Origin: Halogeometricum rufum
GTDB lineage: Archaea; Halobacteriota; Halobacteria; Halobacteriales; Haloferacaceae
NCBI RefSeq assembly: GCF_900112175.1
Contig: NZ_FOYT01000001.1
Location: 1,674,001-1,738,000, forward strand
Direction of reading: 5' to 3'
Length of the DNA: 64,000 nt
Part shown: one piece after another, positions 6,098 to 50,722 of the stretch
Layout: each line of letters begins with the position of its first letter
How positions within the stretch are numbered: position 1 is the stretch's first letter
Notes under the pieces: generated by a model
Database searches by the model: none
Seen by the model: only the letters and a program-made list of their open reading frames with translations
Told to the model about the DNA's origin: nothing
Position numbers and translations under genes: made by a program

Positions 6098-6481
6098 TCA
6101 GTGCGAGACGAACTCCACGAGGACGCCGCCCGTCGACTTGGGGTGTAAGAACGCCACCTCGTGCCCCCACGCGCCGGGTCGCGGTTCGTCGTCGATGAGT
6201 TCGACGCCCGCGCCGCGCGCCGTCTCCAACGCTCCTTCGATGTCGTCGGTCTGCAGGGCGACGTGGTGGATGCCCGGCCCGTGATTCTCCAGATACCGGG
6301 ATATCGCGCCGCCCTCGTGCGGTTCGAGCAGTTCGAAGTAGCCCGGCTCCAGTTCGAGGAACAGCACGGTCATGCCGTCGAACTCCTCCTCGTGGGCGAC
6401 CGGCGCGTCGAACAGTTCGGCGAACAGGGCGGCGAGTCCGCTGGCGTCGGCGGTGGCGACGCCGAGGTGGTGGAACTCCAT
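6098..6481 (-). CDS. mce: Methylmalonyl-CoA epimerase
   Basis: A 127-residue vicinal-oxygen-chelate protein that interconverts the R and S forms of methylmalonyl-CoA. The start is MEFHHLGVATAD: the first metal-ligand His lies in HHLGVA, the central one in GPGIHHVALQTDD (about residue 83), and a Glu near the end in GGVLVEFVSH, the usual metal ligands of the family. The methylmalonyl-CoA mutase large subunit lies 2 kb away on the same strand, which supports the call. The start was chosen because the VOC fold begins at once and a TATA box lies 29 bp upstream; the longer in-frame reading covers the divergent YbjQ gene. It shares one TATA element with that gene. Confidence 0.9.
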   Translation of the reverse strand: MEFHHLGVATADASGLAALFAELFDAPVAHEEEFDGMTVLFLELEPGYFELLEPHEGGAISRYLENHGPGIHHVALQTDDIEGALETARGAGVELIDDEPRPGAWGHEVAFLHPKSTGGVLVEFVSH

Positions 6482-6506
6482 CGTGCGCGAGATGGTCGGG
6501 GGAACG

Positions 6507-6513
6507 AATAAAT
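6507..6513. promoter_or_regulatory. Single TATA element midway between two divergent genes
   Basis: AATAAAT is the only AT-rich patch in the 55 bp between the mce start (6481, minus) and the YbjQ-family start (6537, plus). Its centre is 29 bp from the first and 27 bp from the second, the spacing expected for leaderless haloarchaeal promoters in both directions. Inferred to drive both genes. Confidence 0.6.
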
Positions 6514-6536
6514 CCGCAGGCCGCGCACCGCTCGGT

Positions 6537-6929
6537 ATGCTCTCCACCACCACCGAATCGGTCCCCGGCCGCGAGACGGTCGAAGTGCTCGGCGTCGTCC
6601 GCGGGAACACGGTCCGCGCGCGGAACGTCGGCCGCGACGTCACGCAGAGCCTCCGCAACCTCGTCGGCGGCGAGTTGAACTCCTACACGGGGCTCATGAC
6701 CGAGGCGCGAGACGAAGCCGCCGACCGGATGGAGGCCGAGGCCGAATCGCTGGGTGCCGACGCCGTCGTCAACGTCCGCTTCACCACCTCGAACGTCGCC
6801 CAGAGCGCGGCGGAGATTCTGGCCTACGGGACCGCCGTCCGACTCGCGGACGAGGCGGCCGGAAGCGCCGCCGACACGGCCGAACGTGACGACGACACGG
6901 CCGGTCCTGACCCCGACGCGGTCGACTGA
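6537..6929 (+). CDS. YbjQ/UPF0145 family protein (heavy-metal-binding domain)
   Basis: A 130-residue protein with the YbjQ-type domain: VEVLGVVRGNTVRARN, then RDVTQSLRNLVGGELNSYTGL and EARDEAADRMEAEAESLGADAVVNVRF, ending in ILAYGTAVRL. About 30 acidic residues follow, a halophile tail. The family forms pentamers and has no settled function despite its heavy-metal-binding name. The ATG at 6537 was chosen over longer readings because it starts just before the domain and is 27 bp from the shared TATA patch. The stop (6927-6929) is one base from the ATG of the next membrane gene, so the two are probably cotranscribed. Confidence 0.87.
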   Translation: MLSTTTESVPGRETVEVLGVVRGNTVRARNVGRDVTQSLRNLVGGELNSYTGLMTEARDEAADRMEAEAESLGADAVVNVRFTTSNVAQSAAEILAYGTAVRLADEAAGSAADTAERDDDTAGPDPDAVD

Positions 6930-41491: not shown

Positions 41492-42283
41492 TCAGATGTC
41501 GCTCATCGTCTGTATCGCGCCCTCTATCATGCGCGAGAGGATGTCGGCCATCGCCGTGTCGGCCGACCAGATGGCCGTCTCGTCGCTCCCCGGCGCGTCC
41601 GAGAGGACGGAGAGGAGGACGGCTCTGCTGTCCACGAGCAGGACGCGCCCGGTGAAGTCGGCGGGCGGGTCGTCGTGAGGGCAGGACGCCCGCACGTTCG
41701 AGACGTCCGCGAACAGGTCTCGCACCGCCTCGCTCTCGCTGACGACGTTCACGCACACGCCGGCGTCGGCGCGTTCGCGAAGCGCGTCCACGAATTCGTC
41801 GGTGACGAACGACGGGTCCGGCGCGGCGTACACCACTCGCTCCGTCGCCCGTTCGACGAGTTCGACCGCCCGGTTGTTCACGGGTTCGTGTCCGCGGACG
41901 GTCCACACGTCGTCGCGCGTCTCGCCGGCGGCGCGCTGTTCGCGCGCCGCTTCGAGGTAGTCGAACGCGCGGTTCGTCTCGCGCTCGATGTTCTCCGCGA
42001 GACTCCGCCGGGCGGCGTCGAGGCTCACGGGTCGGTACCGCTTCGGCGTCGACTGCTGGAGTTCGACCAGCCCGAGGTCCTCCAGTTCCTCCGCGGCGCC
42101 GTACACCTGCGACCGGGGGACGCCGGCCACGTCGTGTATCTCCTTGGCCGTCCCGACGCCGAGGCGTTGGAGCGCGACGAACACCCGCGCGGCGTAGTTC
42201 GACAGGCCGAGTCGTTCCAGCGACTCCACGGCCTCGTGTTCGCTCGGCCGGTCGTCGCCTCCGCCGTCGTTCGTCTCGGTCAT
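41492..42283 (-). CDS. TrmB-family transcriptional regulator
   Basis: A 263-residue regulator. The N-terminal winged helix (about residues 15-80: AVESLERLGLSNYAARVFVALQRLGVGTAKEIHDVAGVPRSQVYGAAEELEDLGLVELQQ) matches TrmB, and a helical linker (RRSLAENIERETNRAFDYLEAAREQRA) leads to a C-terminal PLD-like ligand domain (VVYAAPDPSFVTDEFVDALRERADAGV). Third gene of the operon: its ATG overlaps the stop of the RND exporter gene (ATGA, 42280-42283), so it is translated together and likely regulates the same operon. TrmB relatives respond to sugars or other metabolites. Ligand unknown. An open frame extends upstream through the RND gene but is not real. Confidence 0.87.
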   Translation of the reverse strand: MTETNDGGGDDRPSEHEAVESLERLGLSNYAARVFVALQRLGVGTAKEIHDVAGVPRSQVYGAAEELEDLGLVELQQSTPKRYRPVSLDAARRSLAENIERETNRAFDYLEAAREQRAAGETRDDVWTVRGHEPVNNRAVELVERATERVVYAAPDPSFVTDEFVDALRERADAGVCVNVVSESEAVRDLFADVSNVRASCPHDDPPADFTGRVLLVDSRAVLLSVLSDAPGSDETAIWSADTAMADILSRMIEGAIQTMSDI

Positions 42284-44868
42284 CGCGTCTCTCCCCCGTC
42301 GGTGGTTGCGTCGGATGAGGGTTGCGCATCGACGACCCCTCCGTCCGTCGCGAGTGCGTCGGAGTCGGGGTCCGACTCCCCGTCGCCGGCCGCCCCCTGT
42401 TCGGCCATTGGTACGTCCGGGCTCTCGTTGGCGAAGCGGTCCCAGACGACGAGCGCCGACGGCAGCACCACCAGCGACGCCAGGAACGAGTAGACGATGG
42501 AGAGGGCGGTGAGGATGCCGAACTGGCCCAGCACGGACAGCACGGACAGCACGAGGACGCCGATGCCGAACGCCGTCGTGAACATGCTGCCCATGAGTGC
42601 GCCGCCCGTCCCGACGACGGTCCGCCGGAGCGCGGTCTGCAGGTCCGTCTTCTTCCGCTCGTCGAGGAAGCGGTGGACGACGTGGACCGAGTAGTCGATG
42701 CCCAGCCCGATGGTCAGCGAGAGGATGGTGGCCGTGAACGCGTTGAACGAGATGCCTATGAGCCGCATCGTCCCGGCGACGCCCGCCACCGACACCACGA
42801 TGGGGACGAGGTTGGCGAGGGCGATGGACGGCAGGCCGTCCAGGACCCAGTAGATGAACACGAGGAACACCACCGTCCCGCCGAGTGCGAGTCCAAGACT
42901 CGTCACGGCGGAGTTGAAGATGAGGTCGGACACCTGCTGGAAGACGACGGTGTTGCCCGTGGCGACGGCGTCGAACCGGAACCGGTCGGCGATCTTGCGG
43001 GCGTCCGCCGTCACCTCCTTGTCGGAGGCGTCCGCCGAGGTGGTGTAGACGACGCGGGCGCTCCGGTGGTCCTCGGCGAGGTAGCGGTCCACCTCGGAAG
43101 ACACCGGCGACGTCTCCAAGTAGTCGTATATCTCGTCGAGGTTGTCGTCCGGCACGCCGTTGTCGTTCACGTCGTTGCGGTTGACGAGGGCGGCGAACTC
43201 GGGGTCCTCCTCGGCGTAGTCTCTGATGACGGTGACGATGCTCGTCGACTCGGCCCGTCTGTCCTCGGAGACGAACGACCCCGGTGGGTCCTCGCCCGCG
43301 CGGTGAATCTGCTCTAAGGCGGCGTCGTTCTCCATCCGCCCCTCGAGGTATATCGTGACCGACCCCCCCTGCGTGCTGGTGAACTTGTCTTCGAGGAAGT
43401 TCAGCGTTCCGACGACGGAGTAGTCGGAGGGGGCGAACGGTTCGGGCAGCGCCTTCAGGAGCGGCGACACCTCCTCCGGCGGGAGGAAGTCCTCCTGCGA
43501 GAACGACGTGTCGACGCCCGTCGCGTACCCCGCCGCCCCGACGCTGAGCAGGAGGGTGAGGACGAGGAAGAGGACGGGTATCCGGTTCGAGATGGTGACG
43601 CCGACGCTCAGCGTCTCGCCGAGCGCCGACCCCTCCTGTCCGAGCGGTTTCTGGCTGAACGTCGGGATGGGCCAGTCCTGCTTGCGGCGGTCCATCCACA
43701 CCTTCGCGGCGGGCAGGAAGATGCCGAAGATGAGGAACGTGAACGTGATGCCGACGCCGGCGACGACGCCGAAGTCCCGAATCGGGGGCAGGTCGGAGGC
43801 GAGGTTCGAGAGGAAGCCGATGACCGTCGTGCCCGTGACGATGAAGAACGCGACGAGCAACTGGTCGGTCGCCACGCGCATCGCGTCCTCGATGTCCAGC
43901 CCCGTCTCGCGGTCCTCACGGTAGCGGTTGATGGCGTGGATACCGAAGTCGATACCGACCGCCAGCAACAGCGGCGGGACGGAGATCATGATCTGGTTGA
44001 ACGGGATGCCCGCCAGCCCGAGGAAGCCGAACGTCCAGACGACCGCCATCGCGAGCGAGAACGTCCCCAACAGGAGGTCGAGGAGGTCACGGTAGGCGAC
44101 GACGAGGAACAGGACGATGAGGATGACCGCCGCGGGCGTGACGATGAGCAACGAGTCGGTGATGACCGTCCCGAACTCGTCGGAGATGATGCCGCTCCCG
44201 AACACGGTGATGTCCCCGGGCGAGTTGTCGACGATGCGCTGTATCGTCAGCTGAATCGGCGTCAGCGGACTCGACCCCGACTGTCCCGCCGACGAGGAGA
44301 CGTCGGTCGTCAGCGAGTGCTGGACGACGCCGATGGTCGAGGACGCCGACGCGCTCTGCGCGTTGAAGTCGTTGCTCAGCGTGCCGGTGAACGCGGGGTT
44401 GTCCGCGTTCGCTCGGACGGCCGCCCGGACGTCGCTCTGCGTGGCGCGTTCGAGCGTCGTAATCTGGCGTTCGAGCGTCGTCGCCTGCGGGTCGATGGTT
44501 CGGGCGACCACGGCCGCGGCCGAGGACGTGCCGCTGACGCGCAACGTCGGTTTCTCCTCGATGCGCTCCTGCGTCCGGAGCATCGCGAGCAGCGACTGCC
44601 TCGAGAGGACGTTCGGACTCCGCTGGATGAGCTGTGTGCTGCCCGTGTTCTCGCCGAACACCGGGAGGAACTCGTCGTTTATCTGGTCGAGGGCGTCCTG
44701 CGCGGGGATGTCCTCGGCGAACTGCTGGGTCCCCGACTCGGTCGAGACGCTCCCGAGACCGACGGCGAAGAGCGCCGTGACGAGGAGGAACGCCAGTATG
44801 ACCCTCCCGGACTGCTCGACGATTCGGTCGTCGACCCAGTCGACGATGCGTTGGTAGTCGTAGTTCAT
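42280..44868 (-). CDS. RND superfamily exporter, MMPL type (COG1033)
   Basis: An 862-residue membrane exporter of two similar halves, each with a large extracellular loop after the first helix. Helices near the start (VILAFLLVTALFAVGLGSV) and in the two bundles (GIISDEFGTVITDSLLIVTPAAVILIVLFLVVAYRD; GTVVFLVFIYWVLDGLPSIALANLVPIVVSVAGVAG). Conserved internal stretches LLLAVGIDFGIHAINRYRE and IGLGIDYSVHVVHRFLDERKK each contain a buried Asp typical of proton coupling. The tail is acidic. Its start is three bases before the end of the COG1361 gene and it overlaps the regulator; a tight operon. Cargo unknown: lipids or hydrophobic molecules by analogy with MMPL and HpnN. Confidence 0.9.
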   Translation of the reverse strand: MNYDYQRIVDWVDDRIVEQSGRVILAFLLVTALFAVGLGSVSTESGTQQFAEDIPAQDALDQINDEFLPVFGENTGSTQLIQRSPNVLSRQSLLAMLRTQERIEEKPTLRVSGTSSAAAVVARTIDPQATTLERQITTLERATQSDVRAAVRANADNPAFTGTLSNDFNAQSASASSTIGVVQHSLTTDVSSSAGQSGSSPLTPIQLTIQRIVDNSPGDITVFGSGIISDEFGTVITDSLLIVTPAAVILIVLFLVVAYRDLLDLLLGTFSLAMAVVWTFGFLGLAGIPFNQIMISVPPLLLAVGIDFGIHAINRYREDRETGLDIEDAMRVATDQLLVAFFIVTGTTVIGFLSNLASDLPPIRDFGVVAGVGITFTFLIFGIFLPAAKVWMDRRKQDWPIPTFSQKPLGQEGSALGETLSVGVTISNRIPVLFLVLTLLLSVGAAGYATGVDTSFSQEDFLPPEEVSPLLKALPEPFAPSDYSVVGTLNFLEDKFTSTQGGSVTIYLEGRMENDAALEQIHRAGEDPPGSFVSEDRRAESTSIVTVIRDYAEEDPEFAALVNRNDVNDNGVPDDNLDEIYDYLETSPVSSEVDRYLAEDHRSARVVYTTSADASDKEVTADARKIADRFRFDAVATGNTVVFQQVSDLIFNSAVTSLGLALGGTVVFLVFIYWVLDGLPSIALANLVPIVVSVAGVAGTMRLIGISFNAFTATILSLTIGLGIDYSVHVVHRFLDERKKTDLQTALRRTVVGTGGALMGSMFTTAFGIGVLVLSVLSVLGQFGILTALSIVYSFLASLVVLPSALVVWDRFANESPDVPMAEQGAAGDGESDPDSDALATDGGVVDAQPSSDATTDGGETR

Positions 44869-44871
44869 CCG

Positions 44872-46746
44872 TTAGTCCTGTCGGCGGACGTAGACGAAGC
44901 CGAGTATCCCGAGGAGGCCGACGACGACGATGGCGATGAGACCGAGGGGGAGGCCGCCGCCCTCGGACTCCGTCACCTCGACGGGAACCTGGTACGTGTC
45001 GGAGATGACCGTCTCACCCTGACTGTCGTCGTACTGGAAGTCCATCTTCACGGGGTACGTCTTCGCCAGCGCACTCCCCGACGAACTCACCTCGAAGACG
45101 ATGGTCTCCGACTCGCCGGGTTCGAGTTCGGCGATGAACGCCTCGGAGTTCGACGTGCTGAGCGGCGACTCGGTGTATATCTTCGCCGAGATGTCCGTCA
45201 GCACCTCCTCGCGGGTGTTCGTCACCTCGACGCGGAACTCGCCGGTTTCGCCCGCCGCGTACGTCGCGTTCACGGGCGACACCTCGAACTCGTCGGACTT
45301 CGGGCCGATGTCGGTGCGGACCTCGATGGCGTCGGAGGTGCGCTGGGTGTTGTCTTCGTCGCGGTAGTTCACGGTGAACCCGAACTGTCGGGGACCGCCG
45401 GCGGAGGCCGAGGAGACTTCCACCTCGAACTCGAAGTCGCGGGCCTCGCCCGGCGCGAGGTTGCCGACGGCGTACTCCGTCTCGACGGGCGTCACCGTCT
45501 GTCCGGACGGGTCGAACCGCAGGACGGCGTTCGTCACCGGTTCGTCGTCGGTGTTGACGAGAGTCCCGCTGAGCGTCCCCTCCTCGCCGACGCGGAGCGT
45601 GCTCTCGAGGTTCCGGATGGCGAAGCCGGACCCGCTCTCGTTGACCTCGACGGGCAGGTCCACGACGTCGCTCTGGACCTGGTCACCGTCGCCGTTACGG
45701 TAGTTGACCTGCACGCCGTACTGGCGCGGTCCGGGGTCGGCGGACTCCCCGACGCTCACCGTGAAGGAGAACTCGGTCGACTCGCCGGGTTCGAGCGACC
45801 CGGCGGCGTACTCCGTCTCGGTCGCCTGCGCGGTCTGACTGTTCGTCTGGAAGACGACGACGGCGTTGTGCGCCGTCAGCGGACCGGTGTTCGTGATGGT
45901 CCCCGTCACCTTCCCGCTGCCGCCGACGCGGAGCGAACTCTCCACCTCGGAGACGTCGAACGTCACCTCGGGGAGCGCCCGCATGCCGACGGTCAGCGCC
46001 GGACTCGTGCGGGCGTTGCCGGAGGCGTCCTTGTACGAGACGGTGCCTTCGAGCGAGTAGTTGCCGGGCTGGGCGGACTCGCCGAGTCGCACGTCGTACT
46101 GGAACGTCTGCTCTCCGCCCTTCTTCCAGTTCTCGACGAAGCGCGTCGCCTGCGCCCCGCCGCCGAGGCTCACGTCGTTGTTGCTCGACGCGAGCGTGAA
46201 CGTGGCGTCGGAGGCGGCCTCCTCGCCGACGTTCTCCATCGTGACGTTGAGCGTCCCGCGGCCGTCGACGGTGGCCGTCGAGTTGGTGGCGGTGACGACG
46301 AACCGGGGACCGCTCTGGACCTTCACGGGCACTTCGAGCGAGCGGGTGATCTGTTTGGCGTCACCGCTCCCGGAGTCGAACTGGTACGTGACCGTTATCG
46401 GAATCCTGTACGTCCCGCTGTCGATGTCGGACGGGACCGACATCCGGAGCGTCTGCGTCGCCGGTTCGCCGCCGGGCAACTGCGGGACGTAGAGGTTCTC
46501 CGTCAGCACGTTTATCGGCGACTTGTCGCCGACGCGGACGCGGACGTTCCGCGCGGTGACCGTCTCGTCTTCGGCGCCGCCGGGGTCGTTCACGAGCTGG
46601 AAGTCGACGGTGTTCTCCGTCCCCGGTTGCACCGTCGGTTGCGGGACGATGACCTGGATGTCCGGGTTCGAAGTGAGCGCTGCGGCAGGAACGGCACTCG
46701 CGACGAGTGCGACGACCAAGAGGACTGTGAGTGACTTCCGTATCAT
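44872..46746 (-). CDS. COG1361 surface protein with CARDB-like repeats and C-terminal anchor helix
   Basis: A 624-residue exported protein. N-terminal signal MIRKSLTVLLVVALVASAVPAAAL, then repeated Ig-like NEW3/CARDB modules: GRGTLNVTMENVGEEAASDATFTL, GSGKVTGTITNTGPLTAHNAVVVF, EEGTLSGTLVNTDDEPVTNAVLRF and AAGETGEFRVEVTNTREEVLTDISAKI, each followed by a similar acidic strand with E-P-G-E or E-P-G. The C-terminus has a membrane helix (LGLIAIVVVGLLGILGFVYV) with a basic end. So it is an extracellular modular protein anchored in the membrane. It starts the operon with an RND exporter, which suggests an accessory or adaptor role in export. The first ATG is at 46744-46746. Confidence 0.87.
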   Translation of the reverse strand: MIRKSLTVLLVVALVASAVPAAALTSNPDIQVIVPQPTVQPGTENTVDFQLVNDPGGAEDETVTARNVRVRVGDKSPINVLTENLYVPQLPGGEPATQTLRMSVPSDIDSGTYRIPITVTYQFDSGSGDAKQITRSLEVPVKVQSGPRFVVTATNSTATVDGRGTLNVTMENVGEEAASDATFTLASSNNDVSLGGGAQATRFVENWKKGGEQTFQYDVRLGESAQPGNYSLEGTVSYKDASGNARTSPALTVGMRALPEVTFDVSEVESSLRVGGSGKVTGTITNTGPLTAHNAVVVFQTNSQTAQATETEYAAGSLEPGESTEFSFTVSVGESADPGPRQYGVQVNYRNGDGDQVQSDVVDLPVEVNESGSGFAIRNLESTLRVGEEGTLSGTLVNTDDEPVTNAVLRFDPSGQTVTPVETEYAVGNLAPGEARDFEFEVEVSSASAGGPRQFGFTVNYRDEDNTQRTSDAIEVRTDIGPKSDEFEVSPVNATYAAGETGEFRVEVTNTREEVLTDISAKIYTESPLSTSNSEAFIAELEPGESETIVFEVSSSGSALAKTYPVKMDFQYDDSQGETVISDTYQVPVEVTESEGGGLPLGLIAIVVVGLLGILGFVYVRRQD

Positions 46747-46825: not shown

Positions 46826-46895
46826 GCCTAGAATATAAGGTGTTGTAAATTTCGACAAACAAACTCTGCGTTTGCGTTGTAGTAGAAATTTACAA
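46826..46895 (-). promoter_or_regulatory. Promoter and long inverted-repeat operator of the COG1361-RND-TrmB operon
   Basis: An AT-rich stretch between the DICT gene and the COG1361 gene. The minus strand has a TATA box CTTATATTC (46831-46839). Beside it lie perfect 11-bp inverted arms TTGTAAATTTC (46843-46853) and GAAATTTACAA (46885-46895), whose centres are 42 bp apart, four helical turns. Each arm contains the palindrome AAATTT. A second small inverted repeat CAAAC-TCTGC-GTTTG (46860-46874) sits between the arms. It probably binds the TrmB-type protein of the operon; it could also act in termination of the upstream gene. Confidence 0.6.
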
Positions 46896-46901
46896 ACAGC
46901 C

Positions 46902-47603
46902 TCACGTCGACGATGCATACCGGGTCGAGAGGTGCGAGAGGACCGAGTCGACCACGTCCGGGTCGTACGTCCAGAACCCGCGGAACACGCCGGGGTCGCG
47001 TTCCTCCGCGAGGAGCGCGCACTTGGACTCGTCGTCGCCCGCGCCGTCGTAGACGACGAACCACGTCGCGGCAATCTCGTCGTCGTCGACGAGGTGGACG
47101 GTCACGCCGTCGGGGCGGGGCGCGTCCCGGTCCGGAACGGCGTAGGCGTGGATGTCGAGGTCCTTGCTCGCCAGGTCGCTGTACACCCGTTCCTGCGTGC
47201 CGAGCGTGGAGGCGCGCTGGAAGCCGGCGTGCAGCGAGCCCTGCCCGTACCGCCACGCCCGGTCCTCTATCTCGCGGGACGTGGCGGCCATCTGCGTCCC
47301 GTCGTACGAGGAGAACGTGGTCCGGTCGATTCGGCTCAGCACGTCTCGGAACTGCTCTTCGAACGCCTCGGTGGTGAGCGGCGTCGGCAGACCCGAGCAG
47401 TCGGTGCGGACGAACCCGCCGTCGCTGTCGGTGAGTTCCACGTGTCCCGACAGCGACTCGTCGGCGGTACGGCGTTCGACCGTCAGCGGGTACGGCGCGG
47501 CGTACTCCCGCAACTGTTCGACCAACTGGTCGGGCGCGGGGTCGTAGACGACGAGCGTCCGTCGTCGCTCCCTGACGGCCGTGATTATGTCCCGCAAACT
47601 CAT
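46902..47603 (-). CDS. DICT-domain sensory protein
   Basis: A 233-residue protein containing a DICT domain, a sensor module found in haloarchaeal and cyanobacterial signalling proteins. Key stretches: DIITAVRERRRTLVVYDPAPDQLVEQLREYA near the start, then DGTQMAATSREIEDRAWRYGQGSLHAGFQRASTLGTQERVYSDLA (the DICT signature) and VTVHLVDDDEIAATWFVVYDG. No HTH or kinase domain is attached, so it may relay by binding another protein. TTTTAG (minus strand) lies 27 bp upstream. On the same strand just before the COG1361 operon. Confidence 0.78.
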   Translation of the reverse strand: MSLRDIITAVRERRRTLVVYDPAPDQLVEQLREYAAPYPLTVERRTADESLSGHVELTDSDGGFVRTDCSGLPTPLTTEAFEEQFRDVLSRIDRTTFSSYDGTQMAATSREIEDRAWRYGQGSLHAGFQRASTLGTQERVYSDLASKDLDIHAYAVPDRDAPRPDGVTVHLVDDDEIAATWFVVYDGAGDDESKCALLAEERDPGVFRGFWTYDPDVVDSVLSHLSTRYASST

Positions 47604-47668: not shown

Positions 47669-48094
47669 TCACGGAGAGAGCGCGTCGAGCACGATGGACG
47701 CCTCCACGTAGTCCCGTTCTTCCACCATCGGGTCGTCCCCGTAGTTCGCCACCGTCTCGCGCGCGTCGGCGCGGAGGCGCGACTCCAGTTCGGTCTGGTC
47801 GGGTTCCTCGCGGGTCCGAGAGGTGAACGCCTCGAAGTCCTCCCGGATGCTGAACGACGCCCGCGCGACGTTGCACCGCGAGAGCGGGTTCATGTCCATC
47901 TCGACGACGAGGTCACGGACGAGTTCCCAGTCGCTCTCGCAGAAGTGAATCGACACCTCGCCGACGATGTCGCGCCACGCGATGGGGCCGGAGTGCTTCA
48001 TCATCGGCACCGCGCGCGGCGGCACGTCCACGCGGGCGACCGTCTCCGGGTCGTCACAGAGGCAGCACGGTTGCTCCGTCTTGCCCGTGTACAT
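47669..48094 (-). CDS. Cysteine-rich small haloarchaeal protein, unknown function
   Basis: A 141-residue protein. The start MYTGKTEQPCCLCDDPETVARVDVPP has three clustered Cys (CCxC), and IHFCESDWELVRDLVVEMDMNPLSRCNV carries two more with a His, so a zinc site is likely. The C-terminal half is acidic (REEPDQTELESRLRADARETVANYGDD). I do not recognise a family. It has an AT-rich core (GGATTAGTG) 22-27 bp before the ATG and is separated from the HTH gene by 57 bp. Confidence 0.65.
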   Translation of the reverse strand: MYTGKTEQPCCLCDDPETVARVDVPPRAVPMMKHSGPIAWRDIVGEVSIHFCESDWELVRDLVVEMDMNPLSRCNVARASFSIREDFEAFTSRTREEPDQTELESRLRADARETVANYGDDPMVEERDYVEASIVLDALSP

Positions 48095-48151: not shown

Positions 48152-48823
48152 TCAGTTCCGGAGGCGTCGTCGGCAGGCGTCCACGAAGCCGTTGACGTCC
48201 ACCTCGGCGTCGCGTTCGAGCGTGACGAGCACTTCGGCGTCGTCGCCGACGGAGAGTCGAACCAACAGCAGGTGTTCGTAGCCGCGGACGACGAACTGGT
48301 CCTCGCCCGTCGGCAGGTCCACCAGTTTCTCGTCCACCGTGGCGTCCCCCGCGCGGAGCGCGGCGATGAGGGTGGCGAGCGTTCGCTCGTCGTACCGGTC
48401 GCGCGCCGCCTCGTCGGCGACGAACACGTCCGAGTCGTCGCCGTCGCGCGCGACGACGAGTCGGACGTCGTCGGCGTGTTCCTCGCGAAGGTACTCGACG
48501 AGCGGTTCGTACGGGAACGCCCCCGCCTCGACGAAGGAGACGGAGACGGAGGCAGATTCGCCTTCCAGTCTGAGGAGCGCCTGCTTTCCATCGCGCGTCA
48601 GGCCGTAGAGCCGACCCTTCTGCTGTGACTCGGGAACGAGGAGTTCGACGACTCCCCGGTCGCGGAGTTCCGAGAGTGCCCGCGAGACGTGCGGTTGGGC
48701 CAAATCGAGCCTCGTCGCGATTTTCGACGGGAGTTCGGGGCCCTCCCGGTCGAGAAACTCACAGACGGACGCTCTGTACCGTGAGCTCGCGATGTACCCC
48801 GCGGTATCCCAGGATTCACTCAT
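48152..48823 (-). CDS. Winged-helix transcriptional regulator
   Basis: A 223-residue protein starting MSESWDTAGYIASSRYRASVCEFL. Residues 15-75 form a MarR/ArsR-like winged helix: VCEFLDREGPELPSKIATRLDLAQPHVSRALSELRDRGVVELL, with the recognition helix in PHVSRALSEL. A C-terminal domain (LLVRLSVGDDAEVLVTLERDAEVDVNGFVDACRRRLRN) resembles a haloarchaeal sensory extension. A start 14 codons upstream exists, but ATG 48821-48823 has TATA-like sequence (about 48842-48849) before it. Targets unknown. Confidence 0.78.
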   Translation of the reverse strand: MSESWDTAGYIASSRYRASVCEFLDREGPELPSKIATRLDLAQPHVSRALSELRDRGVVELLVPESQQKGRLYGLTRDGKQALLRLEGESASVSVSFVEAGAFPYEPLVEYLREEHADDVRLVVARDGDDSDVFVADEAARDRYDERTLATLIAALRAGDATVDEKLVDLPTGEDQFVVRGYEHLLLVRLSVGDDAEVLVTLERDAEVDVNGFVDACRRRLRN

Positions 48824-49008
48824 CGGTAGGGAAGTCCATTCAGCTATAGTCGGATACGAGCGCACCTATATTTTTCGAGAGATTGAGAGAAAATTCAGAC
48901 GTTCGGCCAGACTCTCCGTTTGTGAGTACCCGGCAGAATCTTACCGTGCGGCCCGCGACCCGACGGGCCGCGAATCGAGGATGTCTCCCCTTCTCGAAAC
49001 CACGTATC

Positions 49009-50057: not shown

Positions 50058-50513
50058 CTATCGTTCGGCGAGACGCGCAATCTTTCCGAGGGCGCGTCGG
50101 CAGACGACGGCGTACCCCGCGGCGAGAGGCGGTATCTCGAAGGCGACGCGGCACCGCTCCGGTCCGAGCGCTTCGACCCGGTGGCCCGTCGCCGGGACGC
50201 GCGCGACGGCCCACGTCCACCGGCGCGCGTCGGCGTCGAACGCCGTCACCTCGAACGGCACCCAGACGCCCGCGCCGGCGATTCGAACCTCGCCGGTCGC
50301 TCCCAGTCCGATTCGGTCCGGGCCGCGCACCGCCGTCACCGACGGCCCCCACTCGGGCCACAGACGCGTCTCGACCAGTACGTCCCACGCGTCCTCGGCG
50401 GGGGCGTCCACCGTTCTGGCGACGACGAGACGCCGACCGTCCGGCGTCCGTTCGACCGTCGTCTCGGTTCGTCTCACCCTTGGTAACGAGTCAGCCGCAG
50501 AATCCTTATACAT
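50058..50513 (-). CDS. SRPBCC-fold protein (START-like)
   Basis: A 151-residue protein of the polyketide-cyclase/START fold: RRLVVARTVDAPAEDAWDVLVETRLWPEWGPSVTAVRGPDRIGLGATGEVRI is the typical helix-grip start, and VWVPFEVTAFDADARRWTWAVARVPATGHRVEALGPERCRVAFEIP the barrel strands. Members bind lipids, polyketides or other hydrophobic ligands. The ATG at 50511-50513 was preferred; a TTG 15 bp upstream is possible. An AT patch TTATAA (50532-50537) lies 22 bp before it, and a small divergent gene lies on the other side. Ligand unknown. Confidence 0.78.
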   Translation of the reverse strand: MYKDSAADSLPRVRRTETTVERTPDGRRLVVARTVDAPAEDAWDVLVETRLWPEWGPSVTAVRGPDRIGLGATGEVRIAGAGVWVPFEVTAFDADARRWTWAVARVPATGHRVEALGPERCRVAFEIPPLAAGYAVVCRRALGKIARLAER

Positions 50514-50587
50514 ATTGGTATGGTACAAAGTGTTATAATCATTTTCAGGAAAGCGTTAAGCCGTCGCTCGTGCCAGAGACTCACACG

Positions 50588-50722
50588 ATGTCTGAGAACC
50601 CACGCAGCATGAAAGAAGTCAGCCACACACCGCCGACGGGCGACTCCGTGACGAACGTCTGGGACCGAGGGCTCGAATCGAAAGCCGCCGAATCCGACGA
50701 GCCGGCACCGGCAGACGACTGA
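50588..50722 (+). CDS. Small 44-residue acidic protein
   Basis: Starts MSENPRSMKEVSHTPPTGDSV and ends in an acidic, helix-poor tail (ESKAAESDEPAPADD). The ATG at 50588 is 27 bp after GCGTTAAGCC (about 50554-50563), a plausible TATA. A longer in-frame reading from 50480 covers the divergent promoter and is rejected. Short proteins of this style occur in haloarchaea, but no family is known to me. It precedes the phosphomevalonate decarboxylase gene by 95 bp and could be independent of it. Confidence 0.45.
   Translation: MSENPRSMKEVSHTPPTGDSVTNVWDRGLESKAAESDEPAPADD

Follow-up and report, generated by a model that had tools for sequence, protein, structure and literature searches.

Among described systems, the closest to the locus analysed here are regulators of the archaeal TrmB family, of which the Pyrococcus furiosus TrmB, encoded together with its transporter, represses from a palindrome at the BRE/TATA of malE (PMC4158304). 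Family members of haloarchaea such as the TrmB proteins of Halobacterium salinarum and Haloarcula hispanica equally have a palindrome near BRE/TATA (PMC4158304, PMC10817205). A gene pair for a COG1361-like Ig-domain protein and an RND permease, HVO_A0466-HVO_A0467, forms an operon in Haloferax volcanii which is induced by iron starvation, with TrmB not mentioned there (PMC11349517).

The same pairing is found on the minus strand of the window, a stretch of 64,000 nucleotides from Halogeometricum rufum, where a COG1361-like, RND-associated and membrane-anchored Ig-domain protein (first gene, 44872..46746) is followed by an RND/MMPL-family exporter (second gene, 42280..44868) and by a TrmB-family regulator with a winged helix and a PLD-like domain (third gene, 41492..42283). 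The exporter belongs to COG1361-RND pairs like those that have recently been connected with iron starvation in Haloferax (PMC11349517). The operon is preceded on the same strand by an HTH gene (48152-48865), a small gene of unknown family (47669-48094) and a DICT-domain gene (46902..47603), and genes like these three recur near the operon in some relatives. As judged from the comparison of genomes, the region in front of the first gene is very probably the operator of a locally acting TrmB-type autoregulator of this COG1361-RND-TrmB operon, which would most likely repress by blocking TFB/TBP.

The regulator carries the TrmB DNA-binding domain (PF01978, 64.8 bits vs a cut-off of 25.6), while the C-terminal effector domain involved in sugar binding (PF11495) reaches 21.2 bits vs a cut-off of 22.2 and is matched over profile positions 2-121 of 233 only. 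Among solved structures, TrmBL2 and the P. furiosus TrmB are nearest to the regulator in sequence and fold, and its structural model also resembles PLD-like folds. Equivalence to TrmB, TrmBL1, TrmBL2 or the haloarchaeal TrmB was not found, as all these NCBIfam equivalogs score far below cut-off. The structural model has a pLDDT of 86.5 and a pTM of only 0.59, so that the arrangement of the domains is uncertain.

The probable proximal operator and its promoter

Upstream of the COG1361-like gene, which starts at 46746, the minus strand contains CTGTTTGTAAATTTCTACTACAACGCAAACGCAGAGTTTGTTTGTCGAAATTTACAACACCTTATATTC. The preliminary description had reported perfect 11-bp inverted arms at 46843-46853 and 46885-46895, and both coordinates and match were verified. 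Each arm is 11 bp out of a 16-bp near-palindrome, TTGTA-N6-TACAA, whereby the proximal arm represents the TATA-side 11 bp of the proximal operator O1 (46843..46858, minus strand, where it reads TTGTCGAAATTTACAA) and the distal arm 11 bp of a second copy, O2.

With the TrmB-type protein as query, the operon was searched for in 171 genomes of the family, and among the loci retrieved, oriented and read, 24 have the order COG1361-RND-TrmB, this operon included. All 24 promoters contain the near-invariant string TTTGTAGAAATTTACAA, matched by O1, followed by four bases and a TATA element (mostly TTAT), such that the palindrome is situated at the BRE/TATA of the operon which encodes the regulator in 24/24 cases and conservation of the arm in relatives, on which the operator proposal depended, is borne out for the O1 site. 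The 17-mer is identical in 19/24 operons and kept across several genera while the flanks diverge; this genome and Halogeometricum limi (G001) carry the variant TTTGTCGAAATTTACAA. In more distant COG1361-RND-TrmB operons, namely L083 and L088 of the same genus and L085, a related palindrome is located downstream of TATA, and L083 and L088 have an additional weaker palindrome just upstream of TATA.

The minus-strand TATA box noted beside the arms is present as TTATAT (46833..46838, read from 46838 to 46833), and its distance to the operator is exactly 4 bp in each of the 24 aligned operons. In this genome, the four bases form the CACC spacer at 46839..46842 (minus strand), which along with the AA at the end of O1 likely makes up part of the BRE, a role suggested by the published -34/-33 adenines (PMC4158304); O1 covers the BRE position. 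An AAC triplet (46870..46872, minus strand) lies outside the palindrome on its upstream side, about two helical turns (about 20 bp) away from the O1 centre; roughly 90% of the aligned operons have AAC at positions -13..-11 relative to the 17-mer, within surroundings that are otherwise variable.

Across the 171 genomes, allowing at most two mismatches to the 17-mer gives essentially one site in each genome, that of this operon; hits elsewhere have about the frequency of a reversed control pattern and are hence at background. In the genome of H. rufum, TTGTA-N6-TACAA with one mismatch is restricted to O1, O2 and one unrelated place. A wider regulon, which was also considered, is rejected, with no sites in the own genome and only background level across the family. 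Sixteen isolated exact matches of the 17-mer were encountered in assorted viral contigs.

From this arrangement, we infer binding, repression, response to a ligand and, where two sites are present, any cooperation of two dimers. A dimer of the third-gene protein would bind the 16-bp palindrome O1, the downstream end of the bound site would occupy the BRE beside TATA, and the operon would be repressed, most likely by blocking of TFB/TBP, until a ligand, perhaps tied to the exported compound, releases the repressor. Repression is the first choice because O1 is placed like the malE operator of P. furiosus. The main rival, somewhat unlikely in our estimate, is that the same TrmB reader on the same operator activates, being bound upstream of the BRE and recruiting TFB or TBP, as the Halobacterium TrmB and the Haloferax OxsR activate from upstream of BRE/TATA (PMC4158304, PMC9426492) and as the whole of O1 indeed precedes TATA by a fixed distance. 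However, O1 extends to the likely BRE adenines with a mere 4 bp left to TATA, the palindrome adjoins an AATATAT-like TATA in several loci where TrmB is divergently encoded, and the position downstream of TATA in L083, L085 and L088 suits repression.

Palindrome and regulator in rearranged loci

The palindrome is also found where the gene order differs. In one set of 23 haloarchaeal loci, COG1361 is missing and the TrmB relative is encoded divergently from a different RND gene (about 33% identity). All 23 carry, in the TrmB-RND gap and no more than about 210 bp upstream of TrmB, a palindrome matching at 9-10 of 10 half-site positions, against a background of one palindrome elsewhere in 353 kb. 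The 23 represent every retrieved TrmB-relative locus with a divergent RND gene and derive from Natrinema, Halolamina, Halorussus, Halapricum, Halosimplex, Halomarina and others. Among them, the middle six bases vary while the half-sites TTGTA and TACAA/TACTA are preserved, with the TACTA half, as in O2, present in 10/23.

Conversely, RND relatives with 58-82% identity that have no intact adjacent TrmB were collected from 20 places, and a match of at least 14/17 to the 17-mer was found in 0/20 of these operons. One of the 20, L196, a second copy in Halobellus inordinatus, has its TrmB split over two frames (6173-6897), a changed recognition helix and an operator decayed to TCTGTAGAGAATTATAA (L196:1944-1960). 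In two others of the 20, Halobellus COG1361-RND operons without TrmB, the outer operator halves are kept and the central AGAAA is altered to CGCGG or TTTGG (L194:1558-1574 and L195:1580-1596, RND-oriented coordinates); the AAC triplet is retained in both as well. A search of the two genomes for a TrmB acting in trans returned just weak relatives (30-43% identity), and the part-kept sites may reflect another reader or recent loss. As the genomes are related, the counts are not independent events, though the losses do span several genera.

Since the site is present in 24/24 and 23/23 loci with TrmB and no intact site is left in 20/20 without, it tracks TrmB rather than the exporter or the DICT gene. 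This comparison lends strong support to the earlier proposal that the TrmB-type product of the third gene reads the operator. Site, fixed place, association with TrmB and confinement to the operon can be read directly from the compared genomes, in which the operator stays with its regulator when genes are rearranged and tends to decay once the regulator is lost.

That a regulator other than the operon's own TrmB, such as the upstream DICT or HTH protein or an unlinked factor, is the reader is quite improbable. The outer site halves and AAC that persist in L194 and L195 would fit such a factor, but only some of the 24 operons have a DICT gene nearby, the upstream HTH gene occurs nearby only in this genome, L051, L052 and L053, and the palindrome accompanies TrmB into rearranged loci without COG1361. 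Owing to this inconsistent presence, the DICT and upstream HTH genes were ruled out as readers.

A point against the TrmB reading is that strong copies of the palindrome were not found in L080, L082 and L086, where TrmB has a similar recognition helix and the RND gene is collinear, and likewise not in loci L145, L158 and L160-L163. A variant palindrome, TAGTACGAGAGTACA, is common to the collinear RND-TrmB loci of Halolamina, where it precedes the RND gene by about 1 kb (L160:4428, L161:4365, L162:1711, L163:4431); it may serve a sister group of regulators as operator.

The second copy and the inverted arms

The distal operator O2 (46880..46895, minus strand, where it reads TTGTAAATTTCTACTA) starts 37 bp from the start of O1, lies 7 bp after the end of the DICT gene and, with a 9/10 half-site match, is a variant copy with a TACTA half. 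Four genomes have O2 at exactly this 37-bp distance from O1, namely this one and those of L051, L052 and L053 (genomes G001, G062 and G063), with two from each of two genera, and the intervening sequence differs; in the remaining 20 of the 24 operons a second site was sought and none was found. The preliminary description had assumed two sites spaced by four helical turns on the same face of the DNA. This does not hold, as its 42 bp were measured between the arm centres while 37 bp, or about 3.5 turns, separate the centres of the palindromes, and as the second copy is limited to two genera. If both sites are dimer-bound, the spacing would place the centres of O1 and O2 on opposite faces. In this genome, its close relative and the two genomes of the other genus, O2 would then add a second dimer to the repressor bound at O1. 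That O1 and O2 form a composite in which two TrmB dimers, at fixed 37-bp spacing on opposite faces with AAC between them, cooperatively wrap or bridge the promoter DNA is a doubtful extension of this picture; if true, such assembly would be without a described precedent among single-operon TrmB regulators.

The preliminary description had offered as an alternative that the arms act as an RNA double stem terminating transcription of the upstream DICT gene. The minus-strand RNA indeed folds better than shuffled sequences (z = -4.5), and the distal arm starts few bases past the DICT stop codon. Against this, neither a T run nor a terminator-like site is present, L052 and L053 have both copies with a weak fold and no DICT gene upstream, L064-L066, L071 and L072 have a DICT gene upstream and no second copy, and conservation of the proximal arm is that of a single promoter site. 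We therefore abandon the terminator, which is extremely improbable. The strong fold in this genome is a by-product of two operator copies in opposite orientation.

Extended, the arms pair at 13/14 positions, and a genome-wide search found the 11-mer only at these two places in 4.19 Mb. The GC-rich window contains 22 pairs of inverted 11-mers with a gap of up to 60 bp, of which the arm pair is the sole AT-rich one, and Markov resamples of the window yielded zero AT-rich inverted pairs. The arm region, at 40% GC, is markedly AT-rich as had been stated, although calling it the only strongly AT-rich part for kilobases goes slightly too far, with 46% GC at 48800-48899 and 42% GC at 50500-50599. That the arms are a chance inverted repeat within an AT-rich promoter, for which the 22 pairs in the same window could be quoted, has a negligible probability, given that the site is conserved in all 24 operons and all 23 rearranged loci and that an 11-bp inverted pair appeared in just 15/20,000 shuffles of the local 90 bp.

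Comparison with known systems

By comparison with the freely accessible literature searched, the operator is new and the type of system already known: the 16-mer was not found there, nor was anything on this operon in the literature on TrmB with RND and COG1361. None of the known consensus sequences TACT-N3-AGTA, TACT-N7-8-GAGTA and TATCAC-N5-GTGATA is matched by TTGTA-N6-TACAA with its TACTA variant half. An operator sequence can now be assigned to a whole haloarchaeal subfamily of RND-linked TrmB-type regulators, for which no described site was found, and the identical 17-bp string, once per genome, provides a handle for learning what these exporters respond to.

The TrmB of P. furiosus and Thermococcus litoralis at malE is alike in being encoded with the controlled transporter, in its palindrome at BRE/TATA and in its local action (PMC4158304). 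On the other hand, its operator TACT-N3-AGTA differs in sequence and spacing from TTGTA-N6-TACAA, the protein here is without the full sugar-binding domain, and an RND exporter takes the place of the sugar ABC importer. The TrmB proteins of H. salinarum and H. hispanica, which recognize TACT-N7-8-GAGTA, are global metabolic regulators with many sites (PMC4158304, PMC10817205), whereas the regulator described here has another half-site and one operon per genome, and it reaches 43.9 bits with the haloarchaeal TrmB model, the cut-off of which is 500. HVO_A0466-HVO_A0467 of H. volcanii shares with the present operon the COG1361-like Ig-domain protein and the RND permease (PMC11349517). TrmBL2 of Pyrococcus/Thermococcus, to which the regulator comes nearest among solved structures in both sequence and fold, has been described as a chromatin protein on coding and intergenic DNA, while the distribution of sites in the genomes suggests that the protein here serves a single dedicated operator region.
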